Origin: a virus
Reading direction: 5' to 3' (one strand)
DNA: 57,687 nucleotides
IMG/VR virus record: IMGVR_UViG_3300045952_000066
Coordinates: 1 to 57,687 of that record
Shown here: positions 12,797-20,322 of the stretch, in pieces
How the letters are laid out: every line of letters starts with the position of its first letter
How positions within the stretch are numbered: position 1 is the stretch's first letter
Notes under the pieces: model-generated
Database searches by the model: none
The model's input: the letters and a program-made list of their open reading frames with translations, nothing else
Told to the model about the DNA's origin: nothing
Made by a program: the position numbers and the translations under genes

Positions 12797-13201
12797 TTAG
12801 GGCGCCCGTGGCATCGCGGCCAGGAGTCGCGCCCACTCGACCTTGGCGCTTTCCTGGTGGCCGTCGAGCCACCTGACGAGAGACTCCACGCTATCGACCG
12901 TGCAGATCGCGAGTCGGTAGCCCAGGAAGATCTCCCGGTGCTTTGCTGCCTGCTCTATTGAGGCGCCCTCGCCAGGACGCTTCACCTCAAGCAGGAAGCC
13001 TGGATAGACGCAGTGGATCGCGCCGTAGTCGGGAGTGCCCTTCTCGACGCCTTTGATCCACCGCTTGCCATCGATGGTCTTGAAGGTCCCGGCGTGCAGC
13101 CGCGCAGGCCAGTAGGACCGGAGCCGCAACAGATCGAGGCACGCCTTCTCGATGTCGTTCTCGACCACTTTCACGCGCGGCGGTGTGAGCCGGAAGGTCA
13201 C
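12797..13201 (-). CDS. VRR-NUC domain nuclease
   Basis: The 134-aa protein starts GTG at 13201, overlapping the radical SAM stop as GTGA. It shows ENDIEKACLDLLRLRSYWP at the N-terminus, then GTPDYGAIHCVYPGFLLEVKRP with the PD and ExK catalytic residues, and SIEQAAKHREI. This is the standard VRR-NUC (PD-(D/E)xK superfamily) layout, a structure-specific or restriction-like nuclease common in phages. Length fits a stand-alone domain. Confidence 0.85.
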   Translation of the reverse strand: MTFRLTPPRVKVVENDIEKACLDLLRLRSYWPARLHAGTFKTIDGKRWIKGVEKGTPDYGAIHCVYPGFLLEVKRPGEGASIEQAAKHREIFLGYRLAICTVDSVESLVRWLDGHQESAKVEWARLLAAMPRAP

Positions 13202-14166
13202 TGGAGAACCTCCAGCAACGGGAAGGTCGGCGCGGGCTTCAGGTAGATGGGCTGATACTTCGCGCCGGTCCAGTCCTTCCATGCGATCCGCTTGTCGTAG
13301 GCGCCCAGGACCCAGCGTTGGAAGCCGACCAACTCAGCCGTCCGCACGTAGGGCATCGGGTACGGCCTCGCGCCGAACTCGCGCAGGCGCCGCCGCCGGT
13401 AGTCGCGGTCCTCGTGCGTCTCACCGGGCCAGTAGCCGATGAGCATGTAGACCAGGAGATGGTTCGGTCGCACGCCATGCCGCGTCAGAGCCTCAAGACC
13501 GGCGAACAATCGAGCCTCGTCCTTGCGGTTGTCCCATGCGGTGTACAGGCGCGGGCGGTCGAAGTGCGAGTCGTAGTAGCGGACGGAAGCCGCCGCCGCC
13601 GCCGTCTCGTCGTTCAAGAATCGCGCGTTGATTCCCTGCGTGAAGTTGACGCGGAACGTGCCGGCGATGAGTTCATCGATGCGGTCGCGCCATCGCGGCT
13701 GGCCGAAGAAGTCGTTGTCGAGGAGCGTGATGTCGCGCGGGTGCGGCTCTCCGCGCCAGATGTCGAAGATCGACCGCTCCTCGCGCACGGCGCCTTCCTT
13801 CGACGGCACGACGCAGAACGGACACCGGAGCCGACACCCGCGTTGCGAGAAGCCGATGGAGGGCCGGTAGTCGGGATAGATGGAGTAGTCCTGCTCCCGC
13901 GTCGTGATGCCGACTTCCTCCAGCGTGATGTTGGAGGTCCCGGTCCCGCCGATGACCGCGCCGGGATACTCGCGGAGCACCCGGTCTACCGCCGGTCGCG
14001 TCTTCTGAAAGATCGCGGACGCATACACGCGATCCCACTCCTGGTCCCACAACTCGCGTTCGCCGCCCCGGCGCAGCACGACCTCGTCGCCGCGATGGTG
14101 CGCCGCGATTCGCATCAGTGCCACGTTGGGGAGCTTCCCGTCGAGTTGGAGCAGGAGCACGCGCAT
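13198..14166 (-). CDS. Radical SAM protein
   Basis: The 322-aa protein starts MRVLLLQLDGKLPNVALMRIA. Residues 1-90 look like a Rossmann-type, B12-binding-domain-like module without an obvious cobalamin motif. The radical SAM cluster motif is RGCRLRCPFC (Cys 111, 115 and 118, C-x3-C-x2-C). Further blocks are LDNDFFGQP, NFTQGINARF, YTAWDNRKDE and VYMLIGYWPGET. I recognise this as a radical SAM family found in many phages whose substrate is unknown. A stop/start overlap couples it to the VRR-NUC gene. A far longer upstream frame is rejected. Confidence 0.85.
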   Translation of the reverse strand: MRVLLLQLDGKLPNVALMRIAAHHRGDEVVLRRGGERELWDQEWDRVYASAIFQKTRPAVDRVLREYPGAVIGGTGTSNITLEEVGITTREQDYSIYPDYRPSIGFSQRGCRLRCPFCVVPSKEGAVREERSIFDIWRGEPHPRDITLLDNDFFGQPRWRDRIDELIAGTFRVNFTQGINARFLNDETAAAAASVRYYDSHFDRPRLYTAWDNRKDEARLFAGLEALTRHGVRPNHLLVYMLIGYWPGETHEDRDYRRRRLREFGARPYPMPYVRTAELVGFQRWVLGAYDKRIAWKDWTGAKYQPIYLKPAPTFPLLEVLQ

Positions 14167-14366
14167 CAGAGGCCGTTCCTCTCCTCCGCTGCATCGCGGA
14201 TCTCGATGCCCTGCCGGTCGCAGAACTGGGCGAGCTCCGCCCACTCCTCGCCGTTGAAGTCGAAGACGCCGACCACATGCCATCGGTCGCCGCGCTTCAG
14301 CTTCAGACGGCCATGCACCGACTGGTCCTCGCGGTAGCGGACAACGAATCTGGCCTCGACGCTCAT
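14166..14366 (-). CDS. Hypothetical protein before the radical SAM gene (66 aa)
   Basis: Starts MSVEARFVVRYREDQSVHG and continues LKLKRGDRWHVVGVFDFNGEEWAEL, a beta-rich fold, with an acidic C-terminus. The stop overlaps the radical SAM ATG, so the two are translationally coupled. No family recognised. Confidence 0.65.
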   Translation of the reverse strand: MSVEARFVVRYREDQSVHGRLKLKRGDRWHVVGVFDFNGEEWAELAQFCDRQGIEIRDAAEERNGL

Positions 14367-14488
14367 GGGCGTCTCCTGAAGAGCCGGAAGCGCACGAACC
14401 GGATGACGGCGACTGAGATGGCCGCGCCGATGAACACCCAGATCGCAACGTCGAGCACGATGGCGATGCTGGCGAGGTCTTCACGCAT
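14363..14488 (-). CDS. Membrane micro-protein (41 aa)
   Basis: Read by hand: MREDLASIAIVLDVAIWVFI begins a single transmembrane helix (to about residue 30), followed by a basic tail FVRFRLFRRRP on what would be the cytoplasmic side. It overlaps the stop of the beta-helix gene (TGATG) and the next start (ATGA). Function unknown. Confidence 0.6.
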   Translation of the reverse strand: MREDLASIAIVLDVAIWVFIGAAISVAVIRFVRFRLFRRRP

Positions 14489-16299: not shown

Positions 16300-16457
16300 G
16301 GCTCCCTCCAGACCCAGCCCAGGAGCAGCCAATACCAGAACCGGCGCCAGAGGTTCGGCATCGGGCGGGCGCAGTGAACGGTGAGGCACGACGATGCGTG
16401 CAGGACGGAGCGCACGGGCGGCTCCGTGATGATCAGCATGTGGAAGTGCTGGTTCAT
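16296..16457 (-). CDS. Small membrane-associated protein coupled to the methyltransferase (53 aa)
   Basis: Read by hand: it starts MNQHFHMLIITEPPVRS, ends with an aromatic stretch WRRFWYWLLLGWVWREP that could sit in a membrane, and has two cysteines in between. The ATG at 16457 overlaps the methyltransferase stop as ATGA, so the two are coupled. No family recognised. Confidence 0.55.
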   Translation of the reverse strand: MNQHFHMLIITEPPVRSVLHASSCLTVHCARPMPNLWRRFWYWLLLGWVWREP

Positions 16458-17908
16458 CTCAGCACCCCAAGTCTCCTAGCAAGCACCGTAAAGACTGCCG
16501 CTGCCTGGAGAGGTACGACTGCATTTCCGACGCACTGAAGGCGTGGTCGACGCTCGACCAGCCAACGGGCAGTCCCATCAGCCAGTCCTCGAATGACGGA
16601 CTCAGCCTCTTGCGAAAGATCCGCTTCCGTAATTTGTAGGGCGAGGGCAAGCGTGAGCGTAACCGGCGACAGAGCAGGCGCAAGATCCGGACGCGCCGCG
16701 AGAATGGCAGGCCATCGAGGATCGTTGGGACCGGGCGCGAAGAGGGGAAGCTCGTCACCTGATCCGCGATGTAGAGTTGTCTCTGCGGGTGCTCTGCTCG
16801 AGGCCCCTGCTCGTGCCAGTCGCGCGTGTTCGGCGTGCGCCAGTGGTGCTCGATGAAGTTGGGCAACTGCTCCCCCTTCAGGTTGTCGTGCCGCTCCAGG
16901 CGCGTCCGCGCGTTCGGGTCGCGCGAGTCCCTCGACGCTGGCGTCGGCCACTGCCGGATCGCGTCGACCAAGGTCGTGCCGGAATGCATCACGCCCGTCG
17001 TCGTCGTGTGCCGCGCCGTCTCCTCCGCATCGCGCGTGTTCGGCGTCGGCCATAGCTCGACCTGATTCGCGAGGTCCACCGTCCGCTTGACGCCATTCGC
17101 ATCCATCCCCTTCCGCGCGACCGTCGCCGGATCGAGCTTGTTGCCGCCGCCCATCGTGCGCGGCGTCTGCCACTGCTCCGTCTGCTCCGCGATGGTCACC
17201 TGATGGCCCGCGTCCCGCGAGGTCGTCCTGGTCCTCACGCCGCCGGTCTTCGGCACGTCCGGAGTGCGCCACTCCTCCGTCTTCCGCTCCAGGTCCTGGC
17301 CGCTCTGGTGGCCGTTCGCCGCCGCGGCGCCCCTCGACCCATGTCCCGTGATCGAGCAGCCGGTGTCGGGAGACGGCCAGGAAGAACGTGCGGAGCCGAC
17401 CGTGGCTGGCTCCCACGTCGGAAGCGCGTAAACTTCCCCACGCGACATCGAACCCCAGCGCGGCCAGATCCCTGAGAACGGCGCCCATTCCGCCCACAGC
17501 GTCATCTGCGGCGTCATCCACGTCGAGCGGTTCGTCAGCAGGGCTATCGGTGTCCCGCAGGATTCCGGAGACGTTCTCTCCGAAGAAGTAGGGCGCTCCG
17601 GATTCATCGAGCACGCGGGCGATGTCGGACCAGATCCACCGCTCGTCGTTGACGCCTCGCCTGCGACCGGCGACGGAGTGAGGCTGGCACGGCCAGCCCG
17701 CAACGACGCAATCCACGAGGCCACGGAGGGGTCGTCCATCGAATCCCAGGACATCGCGGAAGACCTTCGCCTGCGGGAACGCTCTTCGGAAGCGCCGCGC
17801 CGCCTGGGGGTCTTTCTCGACGCCAGCGATGCAGCGATATCGGGGGAATGCGATCTCAACAGCCAAGTCAAGGGAGCCTATCCCCGCGCAGAGCGATAGC
17901 CCGTTCAT
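16454..17908 (-). CDS. C5-cytosine DNA methyltransferase (484 aa)
   Basis: Starts ATG at 17908. Motif I is NGLSLCAGIGSLDLAVE (residues 2-18), the catalytic PCQ lies at 73-75 (Cys 74), ENV at 111-113, the motif VIII region is GFDVAWGSLRASDVGASHGRLRTFF, and motif X is QCVGNAVVPLQAAAVF at the C-terminus. A long Ala/Asp/Arg-rich insert with recurring ADA/AHA units lies between VIII and X. The enzyme methylates cytosine, and in phages it usually protects the genome from host restriction. No cognate endonuclease was recognised. The whole second half is also open in another frame. Confidence 0.9.
   Translation of the reverse strand: MNGLSLCAGIGSLDLAVEIAFPRYRCIAGVEKDPQAARRFRRAFPQAKVFRDVLGFDGRPLRGLVDCVVAGWPCQPHSVAGRRRGVNDERWIWSDIARVLDESGAPYFFGENVSGILRDTDSPADEPLDVDDAADDAVGGMGAVLRDLAALGFDVAWGSLRASDVGASHGRLRTFFLAVSRHRLLDHGTWVEGRRGGERPPERPGPGAEDGGVAHSGRAEDRRREDQDDLAGRGPSGDHRGADGAVADAAHDGRRQQARSGDGRAEGDGCEWRQADGGPRESGRAMADAEHARCGGDGAAHDDDGRDAFRHDLGRRDPAVADASVEGLARPERADAPGAARQPEGGAVAQLHRAPLAHAEHARLARAGASSRAPAETTLHRGSGDELPLFAPGPNDPRWPAILAARPDLAPALSPVTLTLALALQITEADLSQEAESVIRGLADGTARWLVERRPRLQCVGNAVVPLQAAAVFTVLARRLGVLR
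16459..17505 (-). CDS. Second-frame ORF inside the methyltransferase gene (348 aa)
   Basis: A different frame of the same DNA encodes, from ATG 17505, a protein beginning MTLWAEWAPFSGIWPRWGSM. It contains a SRGEVYALPTWEP block, five WxTP repeats (WRTPDV, WQTPRTMG, WPTPNTRD, WPTPASRD, WRTPNTRDW) and LSPSFEDWLMGLPVGWSS at the end. I recognise the W-P-x-x-G-M, LPxLxP, WPTPxxRD and VEWLMGxPxGW set as a family commonly annotated near phage cytosine methyltransferases. It ends five bases from the methyltransferase stop. It may be a real overprinted gene, a frameshift product, or a conserved shadow. Confidence 0.5.
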   Translation of the reverse strand: MTLWAEWAPFSGIWPRWGSMSRGEVYALPTWEPATVGSARSSWPSPDTGCSITGHGSRGAAAANGHQSGQDLERKTEEWRTPDVPKTGGVRTRTTSRDAGHQVTIAEQTEQWQTPRTMGGGNKLDPATVARKGMDANGVKRTVDLANQVELWPTPNTRDAEETARHTTTTGVMHSGTTLVDAIRQWPTPASRDSRDPNARTRLERHDNLKGEQLPNFIEHHWRTPNTRDWHEQGPRAEHPQRQLYIADQVTSFPSSRPVPTILDGLPFSRRVRILRLLCRRLRSRLPSPYKLRKRIFRKRLSPSFEDWLMGLPVGWSSVDHAFSASEMQSYLSRQRQSLRCLLGDLGC

Positions 17909-18341
17909 GCACTGCCGCCTTTCCCGGCTTGCTGCCTCTGGTTCGGTTGTCGAAGTTGCGATGGCAAGGAACGCAGAGACGCCGGTAGTCAGAAGGATCG
18001 TCGTAACGTCCCGTCTGGTTCGCCCACTCGTATCGCCGCCCCGGATCATCCAGGCTGCATTCCTCGCATCGTTGAGGGGCGCCCCGAAGCGCGTACACGC
18101 GAAGGTGGAGGGCTTGATAGTCAGCGGCGCCGCCCTTCCATGAAGGACACCTTGCGCCCCTGCCATCCCGCTTCACTGCTCGTCGTGGCGGGATGCCGTA
18201 ACGCTTTAGGTCACGCTGAATCTTGTGAAGACTGACAGAGAAGTGATCAGCGATTTCTTGCTGGCTCCGACTTTGCTCGACGTAGAGTTCAACGAGTCGC
18301 GCACGGTCGCAGGCCGGGACGCATGTATAGCGATTAGCCAT
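17868..18341 (-). CDS. HNH-like endonuclease with N-terminal HTH (157 aa)
   Basis: Starts MANRYTCVPACDRARLVELYVEQ with a helix-turn-helix (SQQEIADHFSVSLHKIQRDL) at residues 25-46. The C-terminal half has CEECSLDDPGRRYEWANQTGRYDD, then YRRLCVPCHRNFDNR, the two CxxC pairs and the N-to-H core of an HNH/zinc-finger nuclease, although the usual first His of the fold is replaced (EW). Such genes are often homing endonucleases. It overlaps the methyltransferase start by 41 bases and has a good SD. Confidence 0.7.
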   Translation of the reverse strand: MANRYTCVPACDRARLVELYVEQSRSQQEIADHFSVSLHKIQRDLKRYGIPPRRAVKRDGRGARCPSWKGGAADYQALHLRVYALRGAPQRCEECSLDDPGRRYEWANQTGRYDDPSDYRRLCVPCHRNFDNRTRGSKPGKAAVHERAIALRGDRLP

Positions 18342-18351
18342 TCAGGCATCC

Positions 18352-18397
18352 TCCACAGGAGAGTGCCGATTCCGGCGCAGAGGGAGAGGCCATTTAC
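18352..18397 (-). pseudogene. Methyltransferase motif I remnant upstream of the HNH gene
   Basis: Just before the HNH gene, one frame reads VNGLSLCAGIGTLLW, identical over ten residues to motif I of the methyltransferase (NGLSLCAGIG). The codons differ mainly at third positions, so it is not a fresh copy. It breaks off within 15 residues. Its CTGTGGAGGAT segment supplies the Shine-Dalgarno of the HNH gene. Confidence 0.65.
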
Positions 18398-18414
18398 ACT
18401 TCCCGCATCTGCCC

Positions 18415-18485: not shown

Positions 18486-20168
18486 TCACGCGATGCGCCT
18501 CTTGATTTCAAAAGGGATAGCAGTTAAACAAGTGTGAGGGGCGTGAACACCCCCCTCACAGTTGTTTGAGGTATGCCGGGAACCCGCGCCGGGTTCCGGC
18601 AGGGGCATCGGAATCGCCCCGGTAATCGTCACTTCGCCGTCCGCGTACACTGCCTTAAAATCCTGAATGCTCTCCAGAATACTCCTGCGGTGCTCGAATT
18701 TGACAGGCTTGTTTTTGGGGTCCGCGATGCGGCGCAGGGCGGCTTCGGCCTGACGCTCTGACGGGATGGACACAACCTTGCCCGCTTCCTTGAGGTCGGC
18801 CTGAACCTCGCGCAGACGCTTCTGTTTCGCAAGGATGTCAGCCGTCGCCTTGACCGGGTCACCGGCGCCCTCGCTGATCATGTGCTGCAAACCGCCGATG
18901 GACGCCTGAAGGTTCTGCGCTTCCTTCTCCAGCCGCTTGGTGACGCCCGTGTTCACCTCCCGCGCCTTGTAGAAAGCCGTCGCGGATTCGATGAACGTCG
19001 CCGGAACGGTGATCGTCTCCCAGACGGCGTCGAACGCGACCGGCTCGATCAGGTGAACGCCGACACGACGTAGCCTGCAAGGCCCGGTGTGTGTCCGCGA
19101 GTCCTCGTAGTGCTTGCAGCCATAGACCGGATAACGTGCGCCGCGAGAGCCAGCCGTGCCGTTGGAGCACATGCGGTGACCGGCCTTGTCGAACAGAAAG
19201 TGCGAGAGCAGATACTTCCGCTTCGGCGGGCGCCCGTTGGTCCGCTCCGGAGCGTTCTGGTTGACGCGCTGCACCTCCAGCCAGAACTCCTTCTCGATGA
19301 TGGCGCCGCACGGGATGATGCGACCGATGCGCTGGTGCTCTCCGCAGTACGTCGAGTTGACGAGCATCTGGCGGATGACGCGAGGCACCCACAGTCCCGG
19401 CGGAACCCAGACGGCCTTGCCCGTCTCCGGATCTTTCTTTCCCCAGTAGCCGTTCGACAGAATGCCCTTCGCGTTGAGCGCGTGCGTGATCTTGGCGATT
19501 GTCCAGCCGGTGCGGCGCCAGCCGTAGACCATCTCGACCACGTTCCGCTTGCTGATCCCCTCGACGTTGGTCATCGCCGGATCGATCACCAGCTTCCGGC
19601 CATCCGGCGTCTGGATGTTCAGCATCCCGTAGCACGCCATGCCGTGATCGAGCATCCCGGCGTCGAGGTTGAGCAGCCGCTGATCCATCGAGCGGCCCAG
19701 GATCTCGTGCCACTCCGCGCTGGCCTGCCCCATCGCTTGCCAGCACTTGCTCTTGCCTTCCCGCGTGCTGGTGTCGACCACGCCTTCGCGCACCGACCAG
19801 ATGAGCTTGCCCGCGTGAGTGAAGCGGTCCAGCATCGCGGTCTGTCCGAACTCCAACGCGGGACGGAGCAGACGGTCCAGAGCGGAGAGGCCGATGCCGT
19901 CGATATCCGGCGAGGCGAGTTCGTCCAGAACTCGCTGCATCTGCTCGTTGGTCAGGGTGTCGGTTCCGCTGACGCCCTGAAGCTCCAGCGTGCGGACGAT
20001 GATCGCGCCAAACTTCGCTTCCAGCTTCTTCTGGTCGGCGCGTTGGCGGGCCACGTCCTGGCGATTGCCAGAGACGCGGATGACCATGATGATCCGCGGC
20101 GTCGTCGGGACGACCTTGGCGGCGAAGTTGAATCCCTTAGCGGTCGTTCTTTTCATTGGCGCCGTCAT
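18486..20168 (-). CDS. Large serine recombinase (integrase, 560 aa)
   Basis: The N-terminal resolvase domain has MVIRVSGNRQDVARQRADQ with the likely nucleophile Ser 33 and Arg 31, and later GLSALDRLLRP. The recombinase domain follows (KRNVVEMVYGWRRTGWTIAKI, ALNAKGILSNG). The zinc-ribbon region (LLSHFLFDKAGHRMC...YPVYGCKHY...CRLRRVG) lacks the usual first CxxC pair. A coiled-coil segment (RLEKEAQNLQASIGGLQ) precedes the C-terminus. It is probably the phage integrase, cutting attP and attB; no att site was identified. ATG 20168 is preceded by AGAGG; a TTG just upstream is possible. Confidence 0.85.
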   Translation of the reverse strand: MTAPMKRTTAKGFNFAAKVVPTTPRIIMVIRVSGNRQDVARQRADQKKLEAKFGAIIVRTLELQGVSGTDTLTNEQMQRVLDELASPDIDGIGLSALDRLLRPALEFGQTAMLDRFTHAGKLIWSVREGVVDTSTREGKSKCWQAMGQASAEWHEILGRSMDQRLLNLDAGMLDHGMACYGMLNIQTPDGRKLVIDPAMTNVEGISKRNVVEMVYGWRRTGWTIAKITHALNAKGILSNGYWGKKDPETGKAVWVPPGLWVPRVIRQMLVNSTYCGEHQRIGRIIPCGAIIEKEFWLEVQRVNQNAPERTNGRPPKRKYLLSHFLFDKAGHRMCSNGTAGSRGARYPVYGCKHYEDSRTHTGPCRLRRVGVHLIEPVAFDAVWETITVPATFIESATAFYKAREVNTGVTKRLEKEAQNLQASIGGLQHMISEGAGDPVKATADILAKQKRLREVQADLKEAGKVVSIPSERQAEAALRRIADPKNKPVKFEHRRSILESIQDFKAVYADGEVTITGAIPMPLPEPGAGSRHTSNNCEGGVHAPHTCLTAIPFEIKRRIA

Positions 20169-20322
20169 CAACGTCGACCTCTCGTGCGGCTTCGATCTCG
20201 TCCACGATCCGCACTAGATTCTCCATGAAGGCGTCTGCGGCCTGCGGATTGACCACGGTCTTGAGCCGGTTCGTCGCCTTGACCGGCGGCTCGTCGGGGG
20301 GTTCCGGCCTGCGGCGCGTCAT
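20137..20322 (-). CDS. Small acidic protein overlapping the recombinase start (61 aa)
   Basis: Starts MTRRRPEPPDEPPVKATNRL, with a helical NPQAADAFMENLVRIVDEIEAA core and an acidic end. It overlaps the recombinase start by 32 bases and lies inside the tail of the gene at 20168-20536. A small gene beside a serine integrase may be a directionality factor, but that is inference. Confidence 0.5.
   Translation of the reverse strand: MTRRRPEPPDEPPVKATNRLKTVVNPQAADAFMENLVRIVDEIEAAREVDVDDGANEKNDR

Follow-up and report, generated by a model that had tools for sequence, protein, structure and literature searches.

A phage methyltransferase gene with two selected reading frames, probably encoding two chains of one C5-cytosine methyltransferase

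The methyltransferase locus and its two frames

The stretch of DNA analysed here (below, the window) comprises 57,687 nt of a viral record (IMG/VR IMGVR_UViG_3300045952_000066, positions 1 to 57,687). Its minus strand carries a putative methyltransferase gene with two long, overlapping open reading frames, called A and B (Table 1). Frame B is one base out of register with A: its codons start on the second position of A codons, and in the relatives too it is always +1 to A. As a sequence-only reading of the window had proposed, the two frames belong to different families. Frame A matches PF00145 (E 1.5e-25, the match spanning residues 87-267 in the long ORF) and phrog_363 (E 1.5e-45); frame B matches phrog_1008, for which A gives no match at E<=1. 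Searches with frame B found no match in Pfam or NCBIfam, and no meaningful one among PDB sequences. The same reading had the frames stopping within five bases of each other, as they do (at 16454 and 16459), and the peptides WPTPNTRD and MADAEHAR encoded by the same bases, which is the case at 17052.

Table 1. Features of the methyltransferase locus in the window; triplets of counts are substitutions at A1/A2/A3 in 18 homologous pairs.
Feature	Positions	Strand	Basis
Frame A (alpha), C5-cytosine methyltransferase, 484 aa, ATG 17908	16454..17908	minus	PF00145, phrog_363; in relatives, N and X regions constrained in frame A
Motif I (LSLCAGIGSLDLAVE), frame A	17855..17899	minus	sequence reading
Motif IV, catalytic PCQ (VVAGWPCQPHSVAG), frame A	17666..17707	minus	PC invariant in frame A alignment of relatives
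Motif VI (GENV), frame A	17564..17587	minus	sequence reading and alignment
Motif VIII (LRASDVGASHGRLRTFF), frame A; frame B reading is the WPRWGSM..ALPTWEP region	17381..17431	minus	alignment and sequence
FAPGP block (FAPGPNDPRWPAILAARPDLAPAL), frame A, kept in relatives	16670..16741	minus	invariant alignment columns; dual constraint 67/31/77
Motif X (GNAVVPLQ), frame A	16505..16528	minus	A-frame constraint 34/27/92 in relatives
Frame B (beta), open, offset by one base from A	16459..17871	minus	phrog_1008 E 7e-23
Repeat region (W-x-T/S-P units), frame B, presumed target recognition	16807..17379	minus	B-frame constraint, window against L012 and 18 pairs
Motif IX-like block LSPSFEDWLMGLPVGWS (LNPxFVEWLMGWPxGW), frame B	16555..16605	minus	B-leaning constraint 59/21/41
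HNH endonuclease gene inserted at methyltransferase 5' end	17868..18341	minus	phrog_8446 E 4e-19
Relic of old methyltransferase start (GTGTAAATGGCCTCTCCCTCTGCGCCGGAATCGGCACTC), near-identical to L012 start (GTGTGAATGGCCTCTCC..)	18361..18399	minus	window/L012 comparison

Frame A has motifs I-VIII, among them motifs I, IV (PCQ), VI (ENV) and VIII by which C5-cytosine DNA methyltransferases are recognized, and a closing motif X of the GNxVxP type. Homology places its start at ATG 17908; the longer ORF, to 18166, extends into the upstream HNH gene. The sequence-only reading had taken it for a complete methyltransferase, from motif I to motif X. Motifs I-VIII and X are indeed present, but the counterpart of motif IX (LSPSFEDWLMGLPVGW) lies in frame B, and neither that motif nor a target-recognition domain was found in the frame A chain. 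An alignment of relatives shows no conserved frame A sequence between motif VIII and the FAPGP block, so that frame A appears to have no target-recognition domain of its own.

The relevant part of frame B extends from about 17400 to 16462. It contains six W-x-(T/S)-P units (at 17379, 17271, 17172, 17052, 16950, and 16842), spaced 33-40 residues apart; the repeats had been noticed from the sequence alone, but were counted as five. They presumably form the target-recognition region, judging from their position between motifs VIII and IX and from the length of the array, which differs among near relatives by in-frame blocks. The downstream block is called motif IX-like on the grounds of its order and spacing in single-frame homologues and of a weak match to plant DRM, the sole methyltransferase matched by a IX-X profile in the PDB (E about 1, aligned over the LLGFP...GN stretch). 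Two other stretches of frame B are readings forced by conserved frame A motifs. One, SxPxPTxxDG, is that of the FAPGP motif. The other, WPRWGSM...ALPTWEP, had been taken for family motifs of frame B, but is the +1 reading of motif VIII, where A is the constrained frame; its openness nevertheless goes beyond chance, since synonymous shuffles (described below) predict many stops in this region, where there are none, and control genes show no such depletion.

Structure models were obtained for a single-frame homologue and for frame B. The AlphaFold model of the homologue (L123) matches M.HhaI along its length (E 3e-13). It is confident at residues 1-160 and at about 280-360, with pLDDT 25-40 and no confident fold in the repeat region. 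Frame B of the window, modelled alone, gives a low-confidence fold (pTM 0.29).

Elsewhere in the window, 18486-20171 encodes a serine recombinase (Resolvase and Recombinase domains) that is about 99% identical in the nearest relative, L012, and 13198-14484 a protein resembling Radical SAM enzymes (phrog_9298, E 1.7e-42; the match to Pfam Radical_SAM is under the cut-off).

Selection and stop codons in the two frames

Substitutions were counted by codon phase in 18 homologous pairs, no two of which share a member; counts are given in the order A1/A2/A3, where A1 = B3 and A3 = B2. Along the gene the selected frame is A over motifs I-VIII (339/202/686), B over the repeats (463/192/143, p 3e-49), both over the FAPGP and motif IX-like blocks, the latter leaning toward B, and A again at motif X (counts for these short blocks in Table 1). 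In the repeats the substitutions pile up at A1, which is the third position of B codons, so that B is the frame under selection there. At third, first, and second positions, substitutions stand in a ratio of 3.4:1.7:1 for A in motifs I-VIII; the corresponding ratio for B in the repeats, 3.2:1.3:1, is similar, a pattern to be expected if a single frame is constrained. Between the window and L012, 13/8/33 substitutions fall in motifs I-VIII and 26/10/4 in the repeats, and the best segments have 88% identity in frame B vs. 64% in frame A. The comparison of substitution phases in homologues, which the sequence-only reading had proposed as a check, thus finds amino-acid selection on frame B in the repeats (463 substitutions at B3, against 192 at B1 and 143 at B2). 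That reading would have been contradicted by neutral change in frame B, with stops appearing in relatives whose methyltransferase stays intact. The opposite was found: in five relatives (L089, L092, L098, L102, and L106) it is frame A that has stops in the repeats, 3-12 of them (about the chance number or somewhat fewer), with frame B open and motif X kept in frame A.

Stop codons were compared with the numbers expected from synonymous-codon shuffles that preserve the protein of the constrained frame; codon use is likewise retained, whereas codon context is not. The loci were found through frame B, and the openness of B in the repeats, being set by this selection of data, was left out as evidence. 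In the 80 viral loci, frame B has 36 stops over motifs I-VIII where 180 are expected, and is stop-free in 61 loci (8.1 expected); frame A has 43 over the repeats where 268.5 are expected, and is stop-free in 75 (8.9 expected). The third-frame controls for these regions are near expectation (356/425 and 399/378, observed/expected). Results for 72 bacterial loci are similar: 16/153 for B in the N-terminal part and 12/184 for A in the repeats, with third-frame controls at 369/408 and 269/259. Because the shuffles ignore codon context, negative controls bear on that point; no depletion of stops in the +1 frame was seen in single-frame homologues (55 observed vs. 52 expected) or in other genes of the window (224 vs. 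212). The unconstrained stretches of both frames are therefore kept open, as two co-extensive polypeptides would require.

Frameshifts from sequencing error were considered, but are confined to single loci (L027/L067, L055, and L145), in which either the two frames shift jointly or the N-terminal part is broken; they are not general.

Relatives, variant layouts, and start codons

An alignment of frame B led to 80 viral contigs, of which about 73 have the same layout; of 80 bacterial loci retrieved with the motif IX block, 75 have it. The phages include Acidovorax phages Alfacinha1/3, Synechococcus and Microcystis phages, and several of low G+C content: Paenibacillus phage Shelly (47%), phage C75C1 (46%), and Acinetobacter phage ABMM1 (49%). 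The bacterial loci come from Alphaproteobacteria, Myxococcus, Acidobacteria, Chloroflexi, Verrucomicrobia, Planctomycetes, and Streptomyces; E. coli prophages have the layout too. A search of plasmids gave two distant matches only.

Annotation of these loci is uneven. In Alfacinha1/3 (L002, L003), gp46, annotated as “cytosine-specific methyltransferase,” is frame B, and the frame with the catalytic motifs is unannotated. In E. coli ECCTRSRTH03 (L227, 1063-2232), the gene is recorded as two pseudogene fragments (CI675_RS25670 and CI675_RS25665), yet frame A is a single open frame and frame B is intact; the annotation was probably misled by the unconstrained middle of frame A.

Other arrangements of the same pieces occur. 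In what is called here the class I variant (Heather gp35/gp36, DarthPhader gp21/gp22, L095, L099, L138, L141, and L142), the N-terminal motifs are in one frame and the repeats, motif IX, and motif X in the +1 frame. Single-frame forms from mycobacteriophages (L117-L137) unite motifs I-VIII, repeats, IX, and X in a single polypeptide, which shows that the segments divided between frames A and B elsewhere belong to one enzyme; the split forms L138, L141, and L142 fall within the same mycobacteriophage group. In three further mycobacteriophage loci (L139, L140, and L146) the array is divided: the +1 frame has the first WPTP-type repeats, and frame 0 has the later ones together with motif X. Repeats seem to flip frame during evolution.

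In the five relatives with stops in frame A, this frame is interrupted between motifs VIII and X, so motif X would need a third start or some other route there. Four of them (L089, L092, L102, and L106) have an ATG 87-95 codons before the A stop with a Shine-Dalgarno (SD)-like sequence ahead of it; in L098 this is weak. On this basis all five may be three-piece methyltransferases, the least certain step of the interpretation.

Twin starts of the AUGUG, GUGUG, or AUGNNAUG kind, with one ribosome-binding site and two frames, are found in the family. In 54 of the 80 viral loci a B ATG is no more than 8 nt away from the A start: 32 have ATGTG, in 12 the B start precedes that of A by five bases (as in ATGACATG/ATGGCGTG), and in 10 it follows by four (as in GTGAATG). 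Among 75 bacterial loci, 45 have twin starts, with GTG counted for B as well. E. coli ribosomes are able to translate both frames from AUGUG or GUGUG; rnpA-rpmH has been named as the only described natural twin-start pair (PMC9841429).

The window itself lacks a twin start. Frame B has stops at 17907 and 17880, so there is no B start beside the A start, and the start of B must be internal, at or below 17871. ATG 17754 or 17739 is the likeliest candidate; ATGs at the same offsets are also present in L012, L015, and L016. An internal B start is not confined to the window: in one clade (L024, L034, L039, L053, and L058), a stop precedes the start of B, which is a conserved ATG lying 142 nt inside A.

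Comparison with L012, an empty site without the HNH insert, accounts for the difference. As far as the start region, the upstream DNA of the two is about 99% identical. Beyond the HNH gene the window retains a relic of the old start, and the first ~48 nt of its methyltransferase gene are re-coded relative to L012 with the peptide kept. Insertion of the HNH gene removed the twin start, leaving frame B to start inside the gene. The insertion has the look of a homing-type event that carried a re-coded target.

A two-chain methyltransferase and its alternatives

Selection on two frames, the switch of the selected frame along the gene, the openness of both frames, and the twin starts were computed directly. 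From these we infer, with good though not complete confidence, that the gene encodes two proteins in overlapping frames which together form one C5-cytosine DNA methyltransferase. The alpha chain (frame A) would provide cofactor binding and catalysis (motifs I-VIII), the FAPGP block, and the closing motif X, and over the repeats would be a free linker without sequence constraint. The beta chain (frame B) would be an unconstrained passenger over motifs I-VIII and would then supply the repeats, as presumed target-recognition region, and motif IX. The two would be initiated separately and then assemble into one methyltransferase able to modify DNA. In most relatives a single ribosome-binding site would serve both of the twin start codons, the B ATG overlapping or adjoining the A GTG or ATG, so that both subunits would come from the same message; in the window, B would start inside the gene after the HNH insertion.

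The sequence-only reading had left three options: overprinting, a programmed frameshift swapping the C-terminus, or a second family existing only as a shadow of the methyltransferase. Overprinting in the sense of true dual coding is supported by amino-acid selection on frame B in the repeats and by both frames being kept open; the likely reason for it, which was not among these options, is that each frame encodes one of two subunits complementing each other in a single enzyme. Programmed frameshifting, with a +1 shift from A to B after motif VIII and a -1 shift back before motif X to join motifs I-VIII, repeats, IX, and X into a single chain, seems unlikely. The constrained segments do add up to the normal linear order found in single-frame mycobacteriophage homologues, and frameshifting would account for the frame A stops of the five relatives without a third start. 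However, a site-specific shift requires neither A to be open through the repeats nor B through motifs I-VIII; the frames would need to be open on the used side of the shift site alone, and both are strongly open beyond it. The twin start codons of two thirds of the viral relatives would be pointless, FAPGP (A) and motif IX (B) overlap on the same DNA under dual constraint, and two opposite shifts would be needed at conserved places across very diverse phages.

Two unrelated functions, with A a self-sufficient methyltransferase and B overprinted in some other role (e.g., as a regulator or anti-restriction protein), are a still less probable explanation. Every catalytic motif is within frame A, frame B has no Pfam domain, and its repeats have no confident fold; but the motif IX-like block belongs to frame B, and the stretch of frame A from VIII to FAPGP is free of sequence constraint. 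The repeats and this block, moreover, share one chain with motif X in class I and single-frame relatives, making them methyltransferase parts. Hardly any weight is given to the third explanation, that frame B is a by-product of A codons, of high G+C content (0.67 for the gene), and of homology to single-frame relatives. It does hold locally, for the stretches that motif VIII and FAPGP force on frame B, but is contradicted for the frame as a whole by the substitution phases in the repeats, the depletion of stops against shuffles, the persistence of the layout at 44-49% G+C, the intact frame B of the five relatives with frame A stops, and the position of motif X in the B frame in class I relatives.

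The proposed two-chain enzyme has partial precedents. The large-subunit gene of M.EcoHK31I (YGGCCR) also contains, in another frame, the coding sequence of the small subunit. M.EcoHK31I and M.AquI are two-chain C5 methyltransferases; in the former, motifs I-VIII and X are in the large subunit and IX in the small, with the predicted target-recognition domain (TRD) placed in the large subunit, while M.AquI alpha has I-VIII and beta has the distal variable region and IX-X (PMC3404938). The window resembles M.EcoHK31I in having motifs I-VIII and X in frame A and a IX-like block in frame B (motif IX by single-frame comparison, with a weak direct match), and in having the frame of a second polypeptide inside the gene of the first, both under selection and open. 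It differs in that the selected repeats are in the small-subunit frame. In the literature found, neither twin starts nor a wide phage spread is described for M.EcoHK31I. M.AquI has the split after motif VIII in common with the window, and its layout is that of class I relatives (Heather gp35/gp36, DarthPhader gp21/gp22, L138, and L141), whereas in the window motif X is in the alpha frame and most of the gene lies within the overlap of the two frames. The monomeric M.HhaI and M.HaeIII (PF00145) share the catalytic motifs of alpha, and the single-frame homologue model matches M.HhaI, but they are one chain in one frame, whereas motif IX and the presumed recognition region of the window are in the other frame.

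For the starts, the nearest parallels are rnpA-rpmH (AUGGAUG) and AUGUG/GUGUG in E. coli, likewise with one ribosome-binding site, two start codons, and two frames (PMC9841429). The former is one described natural pair, whereas here there are two long co-extensive frames, probably parts of one enzyme, in dozens of lineages. In one phage genus the internal frame has already been annotated: Paenibacillus phage Shelly has gp55 and a “g55 internal gene,” gp56, that matches phrog_1008 (8e-74). No function or generality is claimed for it in the record or in the Paenibacillus phage papers checked, and a search of open-licence literature for this methyltransferase family gave nothing beyond reviews of M.EcoHK31I and M.AquI. 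Two-chain C5 methyltransferases are already known, but the scale and the twin-start layout appear to be undescribed so far.

It seems reasonably likely that the relatives make up a very large phage and prophage class of two-subunit C5 methyltransferases, with nearly co-extensive frames, twin starts, one message, recognition repeats in the second frame, and some lineages in three pieces (I-VIII; repeats and IX; X). Annotation usually records just one of the two frames, and if the two-chain interpretation is right, this annotated frame expressed alone should yield an inactive enzyme. The interpretation would also explain the seemingly disordered Asp/Ala/Gly/Arg-rich middles of phage methyltransferases, pseudogene calls such as that in E. 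coli (CI675_RS25670/25665), and the annotation of phrog_1008 as an orphan neighbour. AUGUG-type twin starts as a device for co-synthesis of subunits would become a testable idea, and the family would offer ample natural data for the study of overprinting, including switches of the selected frame within one gene. What has been an oddity of M.EcoHK31I would then be a widespread architecture, with long same-strand overlapping genes functional in both frames in the phages and prophages of many phyla.
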